DNA from: a virus
Length of the DNA: 24,636 bases
IMG/VR virus record: IMGVR_UViG_3300042910_000059
Location: 1-24,636 of that record
Direction: 5' to 3' (one strand)
The translations under genes were made by a program, and so were the position numbers. How positions within the stretch are numbered: the stretch's first letter is position 1; each line of letters begins with the position of its first letter. This document shows positions 3,424 through 20,119 of this stretch, piece after piece. The notes below the pieces were generated by a model that ran no database searches, was not told the DNA's origin, and saw nothing but the letters and a program-made list of their open reading frames with translations.

Positions 3424-3935
3424 TCACCTGCCCCTTCTCCTGTAGAACCAGTTAAGCCAGGAAACGAGAAACTGGAACTGGAAGGGTGTGAGGCTGCCTA
3501 TGTATTCAAGCGGGTAGCCGTATTCGTGGGCGATTAGGCCTATGTGCTGGGCGTTAACATTGGCTCTAACCCAGTCTTCGACGTCCTGCCAACTGTAAAA
3601 CCCATGTCCCTGCTTAAGGCTGTCATAAGTTTAGCTGCGACTTCCAACGGTAGGGCTTTGACGTCCTCGAGGGTTAAGTCCTTGTTCGCCTTATGCAGCA
3701 TCAGCCAAAGAGTCATAACGCCCCGCTCTTCAGGAGTCTTGCACTTGCCGAGCTCAATGCTGTCCGCCAGCGTTAAGACTCCGTATTCGACAACGCCCAA
3801 GCCTTCAACTTCAACCCTGCGAATCTCCCTGCTGCTTTGAATTAAAGCCTTGACGTCGAATTTGGCGGCCTTCGCAGCCTTCTCTTGCTCGTATTGCTCA
3901 AGCTTTTTGGCATATTCCTCCACTTTCCCGCTCAA
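3424..3935 (-). CDS. tail assembly chaperone, long form by -1 frameshift
   Basis: This is the gpG-T-type fusion predicted from a -1 ribosomal frameshift. The zero frame is read from TTG at 3935 to the slippery heptamer GGGTTTT (plus-strand 3597-3603, phased G GGT TTT). A slip of one base enters a frame that continues 57 codons to a TGA at 3424, directly before the tape measure ATG. The product would be 170 residues: 113 from the first frame and 57 from the second (beginning YSWQDVEDWV, ending FYRRRGR). The second frame has no start of its own and fills what would otherwise be a 116-base gap. In dsDNA tailed phages the same arrangement makes the two tail chaperones gpG and gpGT that coat the tape measure. 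Frameshifting here is predicted, not shown. Confidence 0.8.
3540..3935 (-). CDS. tail assembly chaperone, short form (gpG-like)
   Basis: A 131-residue soluble protein, Lys/Glu-rich at the N-terminus and helical in the middle. It lies between the tail tube genes and the tape measure, the place of the tail assembly chaperone. It starts with TTG at 3935; the choice is supported by an almost perfect Shine-Dalgarno sequence GGGAGGTGAT seven bases upstream. The last 18 codons overlap the -1 frame that encodes the long form. No family motif is visible; the call rests on position, size and the slippery heptamer. Confidence 0.8.
   Translation of the reverse strand: MSGKVEEYAKKLEQYEQEKAAKAAKFDVKALIQSSREIRRVEVEGLGVVEYGVLTLADSIELGKCKTPEERGVMTLWLMLHKANKDLTLEDVKALPLEVAAKLMTALSRDMGFTVGRTSKTGLEPMLTPST
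3597..3603 (-). promoter_or_regulatory. -1 frameshift slippery heptamer GGGTTTT
   Basis: The heptamer fits the X XXY YYZ rule in the correct phase (zero-frame codons GGT TTT become GGG TTT). It lies 54 bases before the end of the zero frame and opens the frame that runs exactly to the tape measure gene. I did not identify a clear downstream stem-loop or pseudoknot by eye. Confidence 0.75.
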
Positions 3936-4302: not shown

Positions 4303-5019
4303 CTATGGTTGTGTCTCAAACAGTATGTTGTCGCCTTCGCCTTCCAGGCTTTCGGCTATCACGCCGTCCTGCTCTATGCTTTGCTCCCAGCTGTTTAACG
4401 TGACGTTTCTGAGCGTTATTAGCGGTTTGCCGGATCCCCATCCGTCCGGAGCTATCATGATGTCGAACTTTTCGCCGGCGAGGATTTTGTTGGCGAATTT
4501 GCTGCTCACATACAGCAGGTCAATGCTGACCTTGAAGGTTTTGTTTCCGCTTGAAAGGACGGCGGGCTTATCGCTTCCAAACACGTATTCCTTGACCAAG
4601 TCCACGTCAACGCTTGCGCTGACTGTCTTGGCGTAGCCTATGAGAAGCCTCTCCGTCATGCCCGAGAAAGTCGCGGTTCCGGATGTTGAACCGCTTGTCG
4701 CCCTCACGCCGAACCGGAAGCTGTAAGCGTTGTCCGGCGCCGTGTATTCGTCGGTCCTCGTCTCAACGGTGTTAGGCGTCAAGTTCACAGTGTTTCTGCT
4801 CAGCTCGGAGCCGGCGCTGTTCAGCCAGCTGAAAACTGCCTGCAGGGCGGTTATGTTAGCGTTGCTTATGTATGTGTATGTGACTCGGGCTGTTTCTCCG
4901 GGGTCAACGCGCTCAGCCGGCGTGAACGCTTCGCTTGTGCTGTTTGGGGGCGGCGAAACGCTGATCGTTAAAGGGTAAAGTGTCCGGTAAAGCAGCGCGT
5001 TTCTGCCTAGAATCGGCAT
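4303..5019 (-). CDS. long tail tube protein paralogue with Ig-like insertion
   Basis: A 238-residue paralogue of the next upstream gene. Both begin MPILGR and share a C-terminal tube domain, with matching stretches such as SVDVDLVKEY / SIDVDLIKEY, SGNKTFKVSI / SGNKSFKVSI and SIEQDGV. In the long form about 110 residues (roughly 14-124) are inserted after the N-terminal arm. The insert is Thr/Ser/Asn-rich and beta-stranded with no Cys, as expected of an Ig-like or FN3-like domain of the kind that decorates tail tubes. The ATG at 5019 follows an AGGAG site. It may be a minor tube component carrying surface domains, or a divergent second tail tube protein. Confidence 0.8.
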   Translation of the reverse strand: MPILGRNALLYRTLYPLTISVSPPPNSTSEAFTPAERVDPGETARVTYTYISNANITALQAVFSWLNSAGSELSRNTVNLTPNTVETRTDEYTAPDNAYSFRFGVRATSGSTSGTATFSGMTERLLIGYAKTVSASVDVDLVKEYVFGSDKPAVLSSGNKTFKVSIDLLYVSSKFANKILAGEKFDIMIAPDGWGSGKPLITLRNVTLNSWEQSIEQDGVIAESLEGEGDNILFETQP

Positions 5020-15171: not shown

Positions 15172-15314
15172 TAAATGTCACCTTGAAAGCGGGCAGCCTT
15201 CTCGTAAGTCCACCAAGTGCATTTCTCGTCGCAGCGGTTTTGACGCATGAAACAGTTTTTAGCCGGACAAGTGTTCCGCGAAAAAAGATGTTTAGTCAAC
15301 GTTTCAACAGGCAT
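15171..15314 (-). CDS. 47-residue four-Cys mini zinc protein
   Basis: A short frame from ATG 15314 to TAA 15171. The product has four Cys in a CxxxxC-x6-CxxxC pattern (CPAKNCFMRQNRCDEKCTWW), very likely one zinc site, then a short basic helix. It overlaps the previous gene by 19 bases and the next by one. The layout resembles the 48-residue protein at 23149-23295. Function unknown. Confidence 0.65.
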   Translation of the reverse strand: MPVETLTKHLFSRNTCPAKNCFMRQNRCDEKCTWWTYEKAARFQGDI

Positions 15315-15553
15315 TTAGGCTGACCCCTCCGCTGAAGGCTTCCCTCACCCCGACTGTCAACAAGCACTTCGCCCCTTTCAACGTCTGGAACATCTGAAAC
15401 CCTGAACTCGCCGAGGCTTAACAGTTTAACAATATCAGCGCGGTCCAACGTGGAAACGATTTCGCCTTTTTTCTTATCTAAAAACGCATGCTCGAAGACA
15501 AGTTTTAAAGCAGCTCTCCGCGCAAGATTCACAGGGCTTCTTTTGCCGGGCAT
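15296..15553 (-). CDS. hypothetical first gene of the late region
   Basis: An 85-residue protein from ATG 15553, chosen for the AGAGGAC ribosome site upstream; the ATG at 15619 would lie in the palindromic control region. The N-terminal half is helical and basic (KRSPVNLARRAALKLVFEHAFLDKKKGE), with a middle LDRADIVKLLSLGEFRV that could form a DNA-binding helical unit. The C-terminus is Arg/Gly-rich. It is the first gene after the largest non-coding control region and might be a regulator or packaging factor. No family recognised. Confidence 0.55.
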   Translation of the reverse strand: MPGKRSPVNLARRAALKLVFEHAFLDKKKGEIVSTLDRADIVKLLSLGEFRVSDVPDVERGEVLVDSRGEGSLQRRGQPKCLLKR

Positions 15554-15593
15554 CGATAAAGTCCTCTGAACGCCACTCTGAGGCGGCGGCTCA

Positions 15594-15670
15594 CCCCGGT
15601 TTTCGCCGGGGACCCACATAGTTAATTTTAGTCAAACCACAGCCAAATGGGTCCCCGGCCGGTTCACCGG
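15594..15670. promoter_or_regulatory. GC-rich palindromic cluster, operator candidate
   Basis: Three palindromic elements in 77 bases. A perfect 12-bp inverted repeat has arms gccggggaccca (15605-15616) and tgggtccccggc (15648-15659), 31 bases apart. A hairpin CCCCGG-TTTTCG-CCGGGG lies at 15594-15611. CCGGT-TC-ACCGG lies at about 15659-15670. They sit between a candidate TATA box and the first late gene, so they may bind a regulator, or form RNA structure in the leader. Confidence 0.6.
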
Positions 15671-15738: not shown

Positions 15739-15972
15739 TTATTTAACGAGTTTTTGAGCACTTTTCAACGCTTGTCTGTGTTTTCGGCTTAGGCTATAAA
15801 TGGGCCTCGAACGAAGCTGAATATGGTGAATAGGGCAAACTGGAACCCTGCGGGTGATTAGAACAATGTTTCCATCCGCATCTTCAAAACGTGTTTCCAA
15901 CCACAGGATTTCTTCAGCTGGATACCACTTCTCGCACCTAGGGCAATAATAGTTGCCGTCGTATTTCGGCAC
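15739..15972 (-). CDS. zinc-ribbon protein
   Basis: A 77-residue protein from GTG 15972 (GGAGGGGG seven bases upstream). CPRC at about residues 10-13 and CPIH at about 46-49 give a four-ligand zinc ribbon with Cys3-His; the C-terminus is a basic helix (RKHRQALKSAQKLVK). Such small proteins often bind DNA or RNA and act as transcription regulators in archaeal viruses. It is the first gene downstream of the GCTNN array, whose near edge is about 33 bases from the start, so the array would lie in its 5' leader. Confidence 0.68.
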   Translation of the reverse strand: MPKYDGNYYCPRCEKWYPAEEILWLETRFEDADGNIVLITRRVPVCPIHHIQLRSRPIYSLSRKHRQALKSAQKLVK

Positions 15973-16005
15973 CTTTCCCCCTCCAATTTATGGTATTTCA
16001 ACACC

Positions 16006-16360
16006 GCTTTGCTTCGCTTCGCTCTGCTTGGCTTCGCTCAGCTAAGCTAAGCTGCGCTTTGCTTGGTTCAGCTTCGCTATGCTGGGCTCCGCTTTGCTTA
16101 GCTGCGCTTTGCTTTGCTCAGCTCTACTCGGCTAGGCTTGGCTATGCTTTGCTGGGCTATGCTTCGCTTCGCTAGGCTCAGCTTAGCTGCGCTTTGCTTA
16201 GCTCGGCTAGGCTCCGCTTTGCTTTGCTAAGCTTCGCTATGCTTTGCTTTGCTTTGCTAAGCTAAGCTAAGCTAAGCTATGCTTCGCTCGGCTAAGCTGG
16301 GCTCCGCTCTACTCAGCTAAGCTCTGCTATGCTGCGCTACGCTAAGCTAAACTAAACTCA
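16006..16360. repeat. degenerate pentanucleotide array (GCTNN)69
   Basis: From 16006 to 16350 the plus strand is 69 consecutive 5-base units, of which 66 begin GCT; the exceptions are gttca (16066), actcg (16126) and actca (16311). Two decayed units (actaa, actca) follow to 16360. There is not one insertion or deletion in phase. The last two bases vary widely: TT 12, AA 11, TC 8, AT 6, CA 5, CT 4, GC 4, six others 3 each, AC 1, while GA and GT never occur. The period is not a multiple of three and all frames meet stops, so it is not coding, except that the last codons and stop of the RAMP-like gene lie in it. It fills the only gene-free stretch over 300 bases (15973-16341). Confidence 0.97.
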
Positions 16361-16872
16361 AGGACTTTGAATCGTCCGAAGCCGTTGACGCGGTTGCTTC
16401 CTATGCCAATTTCAATACCGGCTTGTTCAAAGTCGTTTTTCAACTCTTCAGCCGTTTTTTCCAGTGTTGTGACGAGGAATCCTTCGGCTTGCCATCGGTC
16501 TATCCGTGGTCTAACGCAGAAGTCTCTCACGCCTCCCCGGCTTATGTTTCCGGATGGAACGCTGCGTTTGTCGATTATGTAGTTTTTTATGCCTAGGTCA
16601 AGCATGTATGGTTCTACGCGTATTCGTGGGGCTACTTGAAGCCTTGTTTCGCTTTTCTTTTTGGGCGGAGCGTTTAGGATGTAATAGTCTATTAGGCAGC
16701 CGCGGATCCATTCGCATGGGATGCCAAGGTTTCCGTTTGGAAGGCGGTAGGCGTGGGCTTCAGCCTGTTCAGCGTCGCTTTTCTGTTTAAGCAGTTTTTC
16801 TTCTTCAATCCCGTTGAACTTGTGCATTAGGATGGGTGTTAAGCCTTCAATTCTAAATTTACACTTCAACAT
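16342..16872 (-). CDS. RAMP-like small protein of viral type
   Basis: A 176-residue protein. It opens with a strand and IEGLTPILMHKFNG, a motif common in uncharacterised phage proteins, has a Pro/Arg-rich middle (PRIRVEPY, VRPRIDRWQAEGF) and ends GIEIGIGSNRVNGFGRFKVLEF. The last segment looks like the glycine-rich loop and final strand of RAMP/Cas7-like ferredoxin-fold RNA-binding proteins. No Cas genes are nearby, so a stand-alone nucleic-acid-binding role is more likely. The ATG at 16872 overlaps the upstream stop by seven bases. Its last codons and TAG lie within the GCTNN array, so the array has grown into, or out of, its 3' end. RAMP relationship is a motif-level inference. Confidence 0.65.
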   Translation of the reverse strand: MLKCKFRIEGLTPILMHKFNGIEEEKLLKQKSDAEQAEAHAYRLPNGNLGIPCEWIRGCLIDYYILNAPPKKKSETRLQVAPRIRVEPYMLDLGIKNYIIDKRSVPSGNISRGGVRDFCVRPRIDRWQAEGFLVTTLEKTAEELKNDFEQAGIEIGIGSNRVNGFGRFKVLEFSLA

Positions 16873-17876
16873 GGAGGCAGCACCGTTCCCTTGCTTTTAA
16901 GCTTGTAAAAACAAATTGTTTGGGGGGCTAGTGGGATTCCTTTTACGGCGGGTTTGAAGCCGAAATCTAAAAGGTCGCTGCAGTCCACGTTTGCACGTCG
17001 GTAGAATTCTCCGCCCTTCAGGAAATAGTCTTTGTATCTTATGCGGGGGTCAATGTATTCGACTCCGCTGCTGTCCGCGTAAAACCTCACGATTGGCGCG
17101 CCTATGTCGCTGACGGGCAGGCTTCCTTCCTCGGCGTATCCTGGGTAGCGTAGGAAGCAGCCTGTGCTTAGAAGGTATTGGCGTATAACAAGCCTTCCGA
17201 AAACTTTTCCGTCTCCTGCAACCGTGAACATTGTCATGGGGTGCCAGTCCATTTTGTGGATGTGACCGTGGGCTATTATCGTGGTCGCCCAGATTCCCCG
17301 GCTTCGCCTCAATTGAGCGTCTAGAATGGTTGTGGCTTTCGAGCGTCCGTGAAGCATGTAAACGCTGTAAAGCTGGTCGCCTGCTTTAACCGCAGCCAAT
17401 ATTCCACGTTGAGGCGGAGCCGTGTAAATGTCTGGGTTTTCAAGTTTCTCCTTGCAGTATTCAAACAGGTCCACAACCATTCTGCCCTGTTTAGCGTAGC
17501 GTTTCTCATGGTTGCCCCAAATCAAGGTTTTAATGCGTTTGGCGAAGGGTTTGAAGTCGCTGAGGAACATTTCAACCTGCAGTCTTTCAGGAACCTCGGC
17601 TTCCTTCACGAAGTCGGCGAGGTCCTGCATTTCAAAAACGTCGCCCATCATGCAGATTTGCACGTGTTTCCGTTTTTCAAGCAAGCCTAGATACTTGTGG
17701 AGGTGGCTGAAGCTGTGCTGGTTGTGTCCATAATGGAAGTCGCCCATGAAGATTATTTCGCCGAAACTCCGCGTCTGCCCCTCAATTTTTTCTTTGACAA
17801 CGGGCAGGTCAATCAAAACGAAGTTTTCAAAGTCAAGGTCAAGCTTTTCGCCGAAAACAATCTGCATGTCCTTCAT
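16866..17876 (-). CDS. calcineurin-like metallophosphoesterase
   Basis: A 336-residue metallophosphoesterase with all the usual metal-binding blocks: GDFHYGH at residues 45-51, GDVFE at 78-82, GNHEKR at 121-126, a lone His in MLHGRSK at about 176, and GHIHKMD at 204-210. The family contains Mre11/SbcD nucleases and phage nucleases or phosphatases. The unusual C-terminal 110 residues, with several aromatic strands, are not those of canonical Mre11. No Rad50-like partner lies in the window. Next to the helicase, methyltransferases and RAMP-like gene, a DNA or RNA processing role is likely; the substrate cannot be told. Confidence 0.88.
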   Translation of the reverse strand: MKDMQIVFGEKLDLDFENFVLIDLPVVKEKIEGQTRSFGEIIFMGDFHYGHNQHSFSHLHKYLGLLEKRKHVQICMMGDVFEMQDLADFVKEAEVPERLQVEMFLSDFKPFAKRIKTLIWGNHEKRYAKQGRMVVDLFEYCKEKLENPDIYTAPPQRGILAAVKAGDQLYSVYMLHGRSKATTILDAQLRRSRGIWATTIIAHGHIHKMDWHPMTMFTVAGDGKVFGRLVIRQYLLSTGCFLRYPGYAEEGSLPVSDIGAPIVRFYADSSGVEYIDPRIRYKDYFLKGGEFYRRANVDCSDLLDFGFKPAVKGIPLAPQTICFYKLKSKGTVLPPC

Positions 17877-18842: not shown

Positions 18843-19017
18843 CTTCCCCCCGTAGCTCGAGGATCCTACGGATAATGATTGCTGTTTCGTCGAGCTTCTT
18901 GAGGAGGCTCTTAAGCTGCTTCGTTAGGACGATCCTTTCCCCGTAAATCGGACATGTTGGATTCTGCTCGCACCTCTGGCACGGTTCATCCGATTTGGCG
19001 CACCTAATTTCCCTCAA
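18817..19017 (-). CDS. small zinc-binding coiled-coil protein
   Basis: A 66-residue protein from TTG 19017, overlapping the end of the cytosine methyltransferase by 14 bases. The N-terminus has C-x6-CxxC-x5-C (CAKSDEPCQRCEQNPTC), a likely zinc site; the rest is a Leu/Lys/Glu-rich helix that could dimerise. There is no good ribosome site, so translation probably depends on coupling. Function unknown. Confidence 0.58.
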   Translation of the reverse strand: MREIRCAKSDEPCQRCEQNPTCPIYGERIVLTKQLKSLLKKLDETAIIIRRILELRGEDESVQPRV

Positions 19018-20119
19018 GTTGCATCACTTCCGTTAACCTCCTACCGAGAAACTCTACAACGTTTACCGTGACTGCGTTTCCTAGTAGCTTGTAGCGTCGC
19101 GTATCTGAAAGCTCCACGACTTTGCCGCCGCGCGTTAGCCCCCATCTTGTCCAGTCGTCCGGGAAACCTTGCAGCCTCTCACACTCCCTTGGGGTTAACC
19201 TTCTAATTCTCAAGTTAGCGCGAATCCAAACAAAGGGATCCCACGAGCTTCGGAGGCAGGGGCTTAAACCAGAAACCTCAACAACTCTACCAGCGTGCCC
19301 TCTAGAGGGGTAAACGTAACCACATACAACAATGCCTCTACGCTCTACGGTATTTAGGGAGCAAACCACTCCATCCACCTTTAACCTACGCCCCCACTTC
19401 CACTTCTCAATCCTTGAGACGTCGTCGATCGGGATAACTTGCCTAAATCGTGTTCCATAACCGCGACTAATAGTTCCCTTGTTTCCTCCTCCGATAGGAA
19501 ATATTTGTCGGGAACTTGTTCCTCTAAGATGTCCAACAATGAACACTCTCTCCCTATTCTGGGGAACCCCGAAATACCTGCTGTTAAGCACCTGCCATTC
19601 GACATCATACCCCAAACCATCCAGCGCTTGAAGGATTCTGGCAAAGGTTCTTCCCTTGTCGTTGCTAAGGAGTCCCTTGACGTTTTCCAGCAGTAATAAT
19701 GGAGGTTTTTTAGTACTCGCAACTCTGGTAATATCGCAGAATAGCGTTCCACGAGCGTCCTCGAAACCTTTCCGTTTCCCTGCAATTGAGAAACTTTGGC
19801 AAGGAAATCCAGCAGTGAGAAGCGTGTGGTCTGGGATTGTTGAGGCATCCATCTGTCTAATGTCTCCCTCGACGAGCTCTCCGGCTCCGAAGCGGTAACG
19901 GTAAACCATGCAGGCATATTTGTCGATGTCGTTTGCCCAGACGCACCTCCAACCACTCCGTTCGAGTCCAAGCCTAAACCCTCCGATGCCACAGAACATT
20001 TCGATAAACGTTAGCTCCGTTAATCTCCACCCCTTTGATTCATTTTGCCCTCTTGGTGTATTTTTTCGAGTTGTCTTCCGCATTCTTCGCATAGTAAGCC
20101 CCAAGAGCCGTCTAGCCAT
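19004..20119 (-). CDS. DNA cytosine-5 methyltransferase
   Basis: A C5-cytosine methyltransferase of up to 371 residues. Motif I MFCGIGGFRLGLE at about 41-53, motif IV GFPCQSFS with the catalytic Cys at about 109-116, motif VI LLENVKG, motif VIII QNRERVFIVG, a variable target-recognition region, then TPRECERLQGFPDDW (motif IX) and LLGNAV (motif X) are all present. The long frame overlaps the helicase gene by 100 bases; the first 35 or so residues may not be real, and the true start may lie nearer 20020, where GGGGTGGAG could serve as ribosome site. It probably protects viral DNA from host restriction. No partner restriction enzyme is visible. Target site unknown. Confidence 0.95.
   Translation of the reverse strand: MARRLLGLTMRRMRKTTRKNTPRGQNESKGWRLTELTFIEMFCGIGGFRLGLERSGWRCVWANDIDKYACMVYRYRFGAGELVEGDIRQMDASTIPDHTLLTAGFPCQSFSIAGKRKGFEDARGTLFCDITRVASTKKPPLLLLENVKGLLSNDKGRTFARILQALDGLGYDVEWQVLNSRYFGVPQNRERVFIVGHLRGTSSRQIFPIGGGNKGTISRGYGTRFRQVIPIDDVSRIEKWKWGRRLKVDGVVCSLNTVERRGIVVCGYVYPSRGHAGRVVEVSGLSPCLRSSWDPFVWIRANLRIRRLTPRECERLQGFPDDWTRWGLTRGGKVVELSDTRRYKLLGNAVTVNVVEFLGRRLTEVMQLEGN

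Follow-up and report, generated by a model that had tools for sequence, protein, structure and literature searches.

A phased pentanucleotide array beside a RAMP gene

The window (the whole 24,636-nucleotide stretch analysed, positions 1 to 24,636 of IMG/VR record IMGVR_UViG_3300042910_000059) carries terminase, portal, capsid, tape-measure and integrase genes, and by gene content the virus looks archaeal. Nearly all genes in the window are encoded on the minus strand. Between a gene for a RAMP-like protein and one for a small zinc-ribbon-like protein lies an array of five-base units, which starts within the final codons of the RAMP-like gene, in its stop-codon region, and ends ~33 nt before the start of the zinc-ribbon gene (Table 1). 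Elsewhere in the window, the tape-measure gene contains about three tandem copies of a ~132-bp repeat (2252–2667), a C5 cytosine DNA methyltransferase gene (PF00145) lies at 19004–20119 and, beside the terminase region, there is a retropepsin-like aspartyl protease domain (PF13975/PF13650; 14479–14955) that is possibly a head maturation protease.

Table 1 Features of the array locus
Feature	Position	Strand	Basis
Zinc-ribbon-like protein, 77 aa (CxxC...CPxHH), own ribosome-binding site, directly downstream	15739..15972	-	Conserved beside both cassettes
Possible short 3' hairpin GGTGTTGAAATACC, 14 nt, directly after array	15992..16005	-	Weak; read from sequence
vrRNA-like array, 71 contiguous (AGY NN) units in RNA sense	16006..16360	-	Unit count, phase
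Dinucleotide block of ~12 units common to window and sibling L020, guide-sized; most of the rest differs	16143..16205	-	Alignment
vipr gene (RAMP/Cas7-like, 176 aa), last codons overlap array start	16342..16872	-	phrog_4652, profiles, fold
Metallophosphoesterase (SbcD-like), upstream border of variable slot	16866..17876	-	PF00149, phrog_7339

Unit counting on the plus strand found GCTNN in 66 of 69 in-phase units (16006–16350), the same unit counts as in an earlier sequence-only reading of this DNA, and two ACTNN units extend the array to 16360, for a total of 71 units. Four of the five units that depart from GCT are ACT, which is AGT on the opposite strand, so that AGY holds on the minus strand in 70 of the 71 units, with no phase slip. 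The division into three fixed and two free positions was confirmed. The free dinucleotide takes 14 of the 16 possible values, and GA and GT are missing; this absence is real in the window but does not extend to a rule, as TC and AC, their equivalents in the sense strand, account for 57 of 514 dinucleotides in other AGY arrays. Elsewhere in the window, the best 69-unit stretch has 7 GCT units, the maximum in 200 first-order Markov simulations was 9, and a search with the same pattern written backwards gave no match. Neighbouring units are only weakly alike (lag-1 identity 15% versus 10% expected) and 71 of them run without a slip, which argues against a decayed or slipping microsatellite, as the sequence-only reading had concluded. 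A coding reading was rejected: the A-x-L-x-x period of the plus frame, which resembles pentapeptide repeats, is forced by GCTNN itself, and this frame is open for 61 aa only and runs opposite to the genes.

The array RNA is no more structured than shuffled sequences (z=-1.5), and no known RNA family, hammerhead included, scored above threshold in the window and ten related loci. The short hairpin that may follow the array is absent at the corresponding place in the sibling L020. Neither CRISPR repeats and spacers nor other cas genes were found in the window, and its tandem repeat list contains no CRISPR-like array.

The neighbouring protein is related to a solved Vipr

The RAMP-like protein, which the sequence-only reading rightly singled out as a candidate for testing, matches phrog_4652 (E=3e-7). 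A profile of the window's clade (A4) found a single significant match in the PDB, Vipr of Escherichia phage SUSP1 (PDB 36pp; E=1e-6), and a wider family profile built without SUSP1 (A3) found the same protein with E=5.8e-33; profile–profile comparison of the window family and SUSP1 Vipr gave 98% probability. An AlphaFold model of the window protein (pLDDT 87) retrieved Csm3 and type VII/III Cas7 chains by Foldseek (best E=2.6e-7), and a Cas6 match stayed below threshold (E=0.005). The Cas7/Csm3 fold, together with a family profile that finds the solved SUSP1 protein, is the ground on which we assign the locus to VIPR (Viral Interference Programmable Repeat). According to a preprint of June 2026, VIPR pairs a Vipr RAMP with guide RNAs of the form GGY/NN 'or a related consensus', which skip one base for every two paired DNA bases and act against competing phages (PMC13142463). 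The sequence-only reading's statement that no element of this form had been described is superseded by that preprint.

The downstream zinc-ribbon protein had no match in Pfam or NCBIfam. It is conserved beside both AGY and GGA cassettes (see below), with 67–70% identity versus 91–98% for the backbone, and is a candidate accessory, Vap-like protein. The metallophosphoesterase on the other side is 94–99% identical in relatives carrying either cassette.

Variable arrays travel with Vipr homologues in sense orientation

Twelve exact GCTNN units, searched as a pattern in IMG/VR, were found at 46 loci, of which approximately 22 have variable dinucleotides and 24 are uniform microsatellites; variable runs exist in other viral contigs, a check that the sequence-only reading had proposed. 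GCTNN loci in bacterial genomes were essentially all uniform microsatellites, among the matches listed. A semi-degenerate array in an Oscillospiraceae contig (L160 572–682; dinucleotides TG, TA, GA and AA only) lies in a bacterial genome and is unlike the other uniform repeats there.

The variable arrays lie mainly between genes and are antisense to genes on the GCT strand. All-against-all comparison showed that the ~190-aa phrog_4652 RAMP-like protein recurs beside them, and a profile detected a Vipr homologue in 15 of 22 variable-array contigs and in none of the 24 with uniform arrays (Fisher p=3.3e-7). The Vipr-linked AGY arrays, 55 in all, lie without exception on the sense strand of vipr, most of them no more than a few hundred bases from it, and several arrays can occur at one locus on both sides of the gene. 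Since every linked array runs in the sense of the RAMP gene, the minus strand is the functional one and the element is (AGY NN)n; the GCTNN pattern of the sequence-only reading is real, but it had been read from the other strand. Vipr loci fetched by protein carry GGY, GGN or GGA arrays where arrays were detected, never on the opposite strand, and no RGN scaffold array was found on the opposite strand in 34 Vipr loci. The AGY loci were chosen by the GCT pattern and so give no frequency of AGY among Viprs. In a small Vipr tree AGY occurs in more than one branch, one of them beside the GGY-bearing SUSP1 branch, deep support being weak. The same script recovered the GGY arrays of SUSP1 and wV8 as a positive control.

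Homologous AGY loci mostly have 7–16 units, a few 22–35. The nearest in length to the window array are the long seamless arrays of L027 (4031–4185 and 8732–10307) and L024 (558–692), with 26–35 units. In L030 (1576–2166), about ten AGY arrays of 8–13 units, separated by gaps of only a few bases (AGGC), lie downstream of a divergent Vipr and resemble arrays called 'staggered' in the preprint (PMC13142463). Two arrays of L039 (~3640–3765 and ~4315–4455) are preceded by the same ~18-nt AT-rich sequence and followed by the same ~20-nt sequence, flanks that suggest that each vrRNA has a promoter and a 3' end of its own. Degenerate AGY arrays also occur in L013 (6524–7092), L029 (327–590), L026 (2585–2774) and L053 (7661–7722), with no Vipr in the stretch examined; either vipr lies farther off, or these are vrRNAs without a vipr of their own.

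Scaffold and reader change together in one slot

Comparison of dinucleotide content and length with a close sibling, as the sequence-only reading had advised, separated constant from variable parts. In L020 (a contig shared with L175 and L191), the RAMP is 98% identical to that of the window and the AGC scaffold is kept, and most dinucleotides and the array length differ, apart from the guide-sized block listed in Table 1.

A larger change was seen in L176, L177 and L178, which are ~91–98% identical to the window over most of the backbone. In the same slot these relatives encode a different Vipr, ~25% identical to that of the window, flanked on either side by GGA/NN arrays that reach 14 units (L176 2019–2911, L177 1761–2515, L178 6122–7144); a direct match to SUSP1 Vipr was obtained with the L177 protein (E=2.5e-6). 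One 12-unit block, AT GT TT GT AC CT AG GT CC GT AA GT, is identical in all three, and the other blocks differ. Because GGA/NN arrays and a different Vipr share the slot in near-identical relatives, the scaffold changes with the reader (AGY to GGA) in an otherwise stable genome, as predicted for a reader–scaffold pair.

The array has 18 AGCT sites. The sequence-only reading had named AGCT as a possible methylation target, a suggestion for which we find no support, as the GGA/NN arrays of relatives have no built-in AGCT. That the element travels with its RAMP gene likewise leaves a partition or packaging site, and a product of untemplated extension, without support.

Target search

The searches yielded no convincing target. 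Read with a 1-nt skip, the 10-unit shared guide had no exact match in IMG/VR, and the matches of two 8-unit guides in an exact IMG/VR scan do not extend, which marks them as chance. Related viruses were searched with skips of 0–3 and lengths of 9–16 units against shuffled guides, and none of the 1-nt-skip matches exceeded the shuffled guides. At zero skip, the last nine units have an exact 18-nt match in an L177 gene, the homologue of the window gene at 15296–15619. None of 578 shuffles gave such a match at zero skip; over all skips, 3 of 2,312 did. Four skip rules and several lengths entered the search, so this match is a lead only, and unproven.

Interpretation

The reading that we favour, at a probability of about 90%, is that the array is the vrRNA guide of a VIPR system, with the neighbouring Vipr as its reader. 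It is based on phase, scaffold, sense orientation, RAMP linkage, fold, SUSP1 homology, dinucleotide change and scaffold swap. Each AGY triplet would serve as scaffold and be held by a subunit of Vipr, at one subunit for every five nucleotides, and the two free nucleotides of each unit would be displayed, together spelling, with gaps, the DNA to be bound. Vipr would coat the RNA, then bind and silence DNA that it matches in a competing virus or another mobile element. By analogy with what the preprint reports, the array may be transcribed as a small RNA, assembled into a ribonucleoprotein and read with a 1-nt skip, leading to transcriptional silencing (PMC13142463). Against this reading count the lack of a target in the searches above, an array far longer than the 9–16 units described, the want of a clear 3' tail and a scaffold of AGY rather than GGY. 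The sequence-only reading had already raised a five-nucleotide RNA period read by a polymerising protein, which is plausible; it did not see that the guide information is probably carried by the free dinucleotides.

Three other explanations were weighed. The best of them, although improbable, is that the array is a RAMP-binding RNA with a purely regulatory role, such as a TRAP-like leader for the zinc-ribbon gene or vipr, in which the free dinucleotides are uninformative. Arrays usually lie between co-oriented genes, many of them close upstream of a ribosome-binding site, and the lack of RNA structure beyond that of shuffles would suit a leader. However, siblings keep a guide-sized block while the neighbouring dinucleotides have wholly changed, the single 12-unit block is identical in three relatives whose other blocks differ, several arrays can flank vipr on both sides, and arrays of the same build in SUSP1 are described as proven guides in the preprint (PMC13142463). 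An element acting as DNA, in which a partition, packaging or nucleoid protein meets GCT on alternating faces of the helix, is very unlikely: five bases make up about half a turn of the helix and the array is intergenic, but neither the strict strand bias to vipr nor the co-variation of the triplet with the Vipr allele would be expected, and no arrays were seen in close relatives' stretches without a detected vipr, stretches that mostly stop short of the slot. Equally remote is a degenerate microsatellite or assembly artefact, for which the listing of the array by Tandem Repeats Finder and its few identical neighbours speak, against unbroken phase and scaffold-specific constancy, the same build in independent contigs and relatives, and period 5 as the only one among periods 4–9 in a set partly chosen for period 5.

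If the locus is a VIPR guide and reader, the system reaches a distant virus group, where the scaffold is AGY and the guide seamless and very long. The natural exchange of Vipr in backbones 91–98% identical makes reading of the scaffold triplet by Vipr, and orthogonality, directly testable; guide renewal is testable as well, since siblings have one guide-sized block in common and the rest differs. A further proposal, possible but doubtful, is that AGY/NN and GGA/NN cassettes, each comprising Vipr, scaffold and guides, are swapped in one slot among near-identical viruses and are mutually orthogonal, and that the 71-unit tail-less RNA serves as one long filament or as many overlapping guides, possibly with another skip rule, for which the zero-skip match in the rival virus L177 is the lead.

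Comparison with known systems

The TRAP-binding RNAs of Bacillus consist of (G/U)AG repeats with spacers of 2–3 nt that carry no information, in a fixed leader of ~11 triplets. The window array shares with them a five-nucleotide period, a conserved AG and one subunit per repeat, but the TRAP protein is unrelated and recognises a fixed leader. With the RAMPs of class 1 CRISPR systems (Csm3/Cas7, types III and VII) the window shares the protein fold and, putatively, the coating of a guide by repeated subunits; it differs in that CRISPR repeats, spacers and further cas genes are absent, and its guide information is interrupted every two bases.

The closest system is type II VIPR of Escherichia phage SUSP1 (PMC13142463; PDB 36pp), one of seven VIPR types. 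VIPR has been proposed as an ancestor of CRISPR, and its description so far comes from this one preprint, with GGY/NN guides (PMC13142463). Both viral loci have a small single-domain RAMP, the two proteins being homologous, and an adjacent intergenic RNA of pentanucleotides, each with three fixed bases and two hypervariable ones, that runs in the sense of vipr. The RRM core expected of such a RAMP is indicated in the window by the SUSP1 profile match and the Cas7/Csm3 fold, and the array lies in a virus, next to vipr and co-oriented with it. In contrast to the several SUSP1 arrays of 9–16 units, described for type II as separate transcripts with an invariable structured 3' tail (PMC13142463), the window has one seamless array of 71 contiguous units, without a clear tail beyond at most the 14-nt hairpin, and a zinc-ribbon neighbour that distinguishes it from SUSP1. 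The figure of 9–16 repeats per vrRNA is that of type II and may not bind all seven types. We regard the window system as a VIPR variant whose scaffold is AGY and whose array is long and seamless, with the reservation that the preprint itself allows for 'a related consensus' (PMC13142463): AGY/NN, found in 70 of 71 units, is not GGY itself, but differs from it by one transition at the first position, the second G and the pyrimidine being kept.
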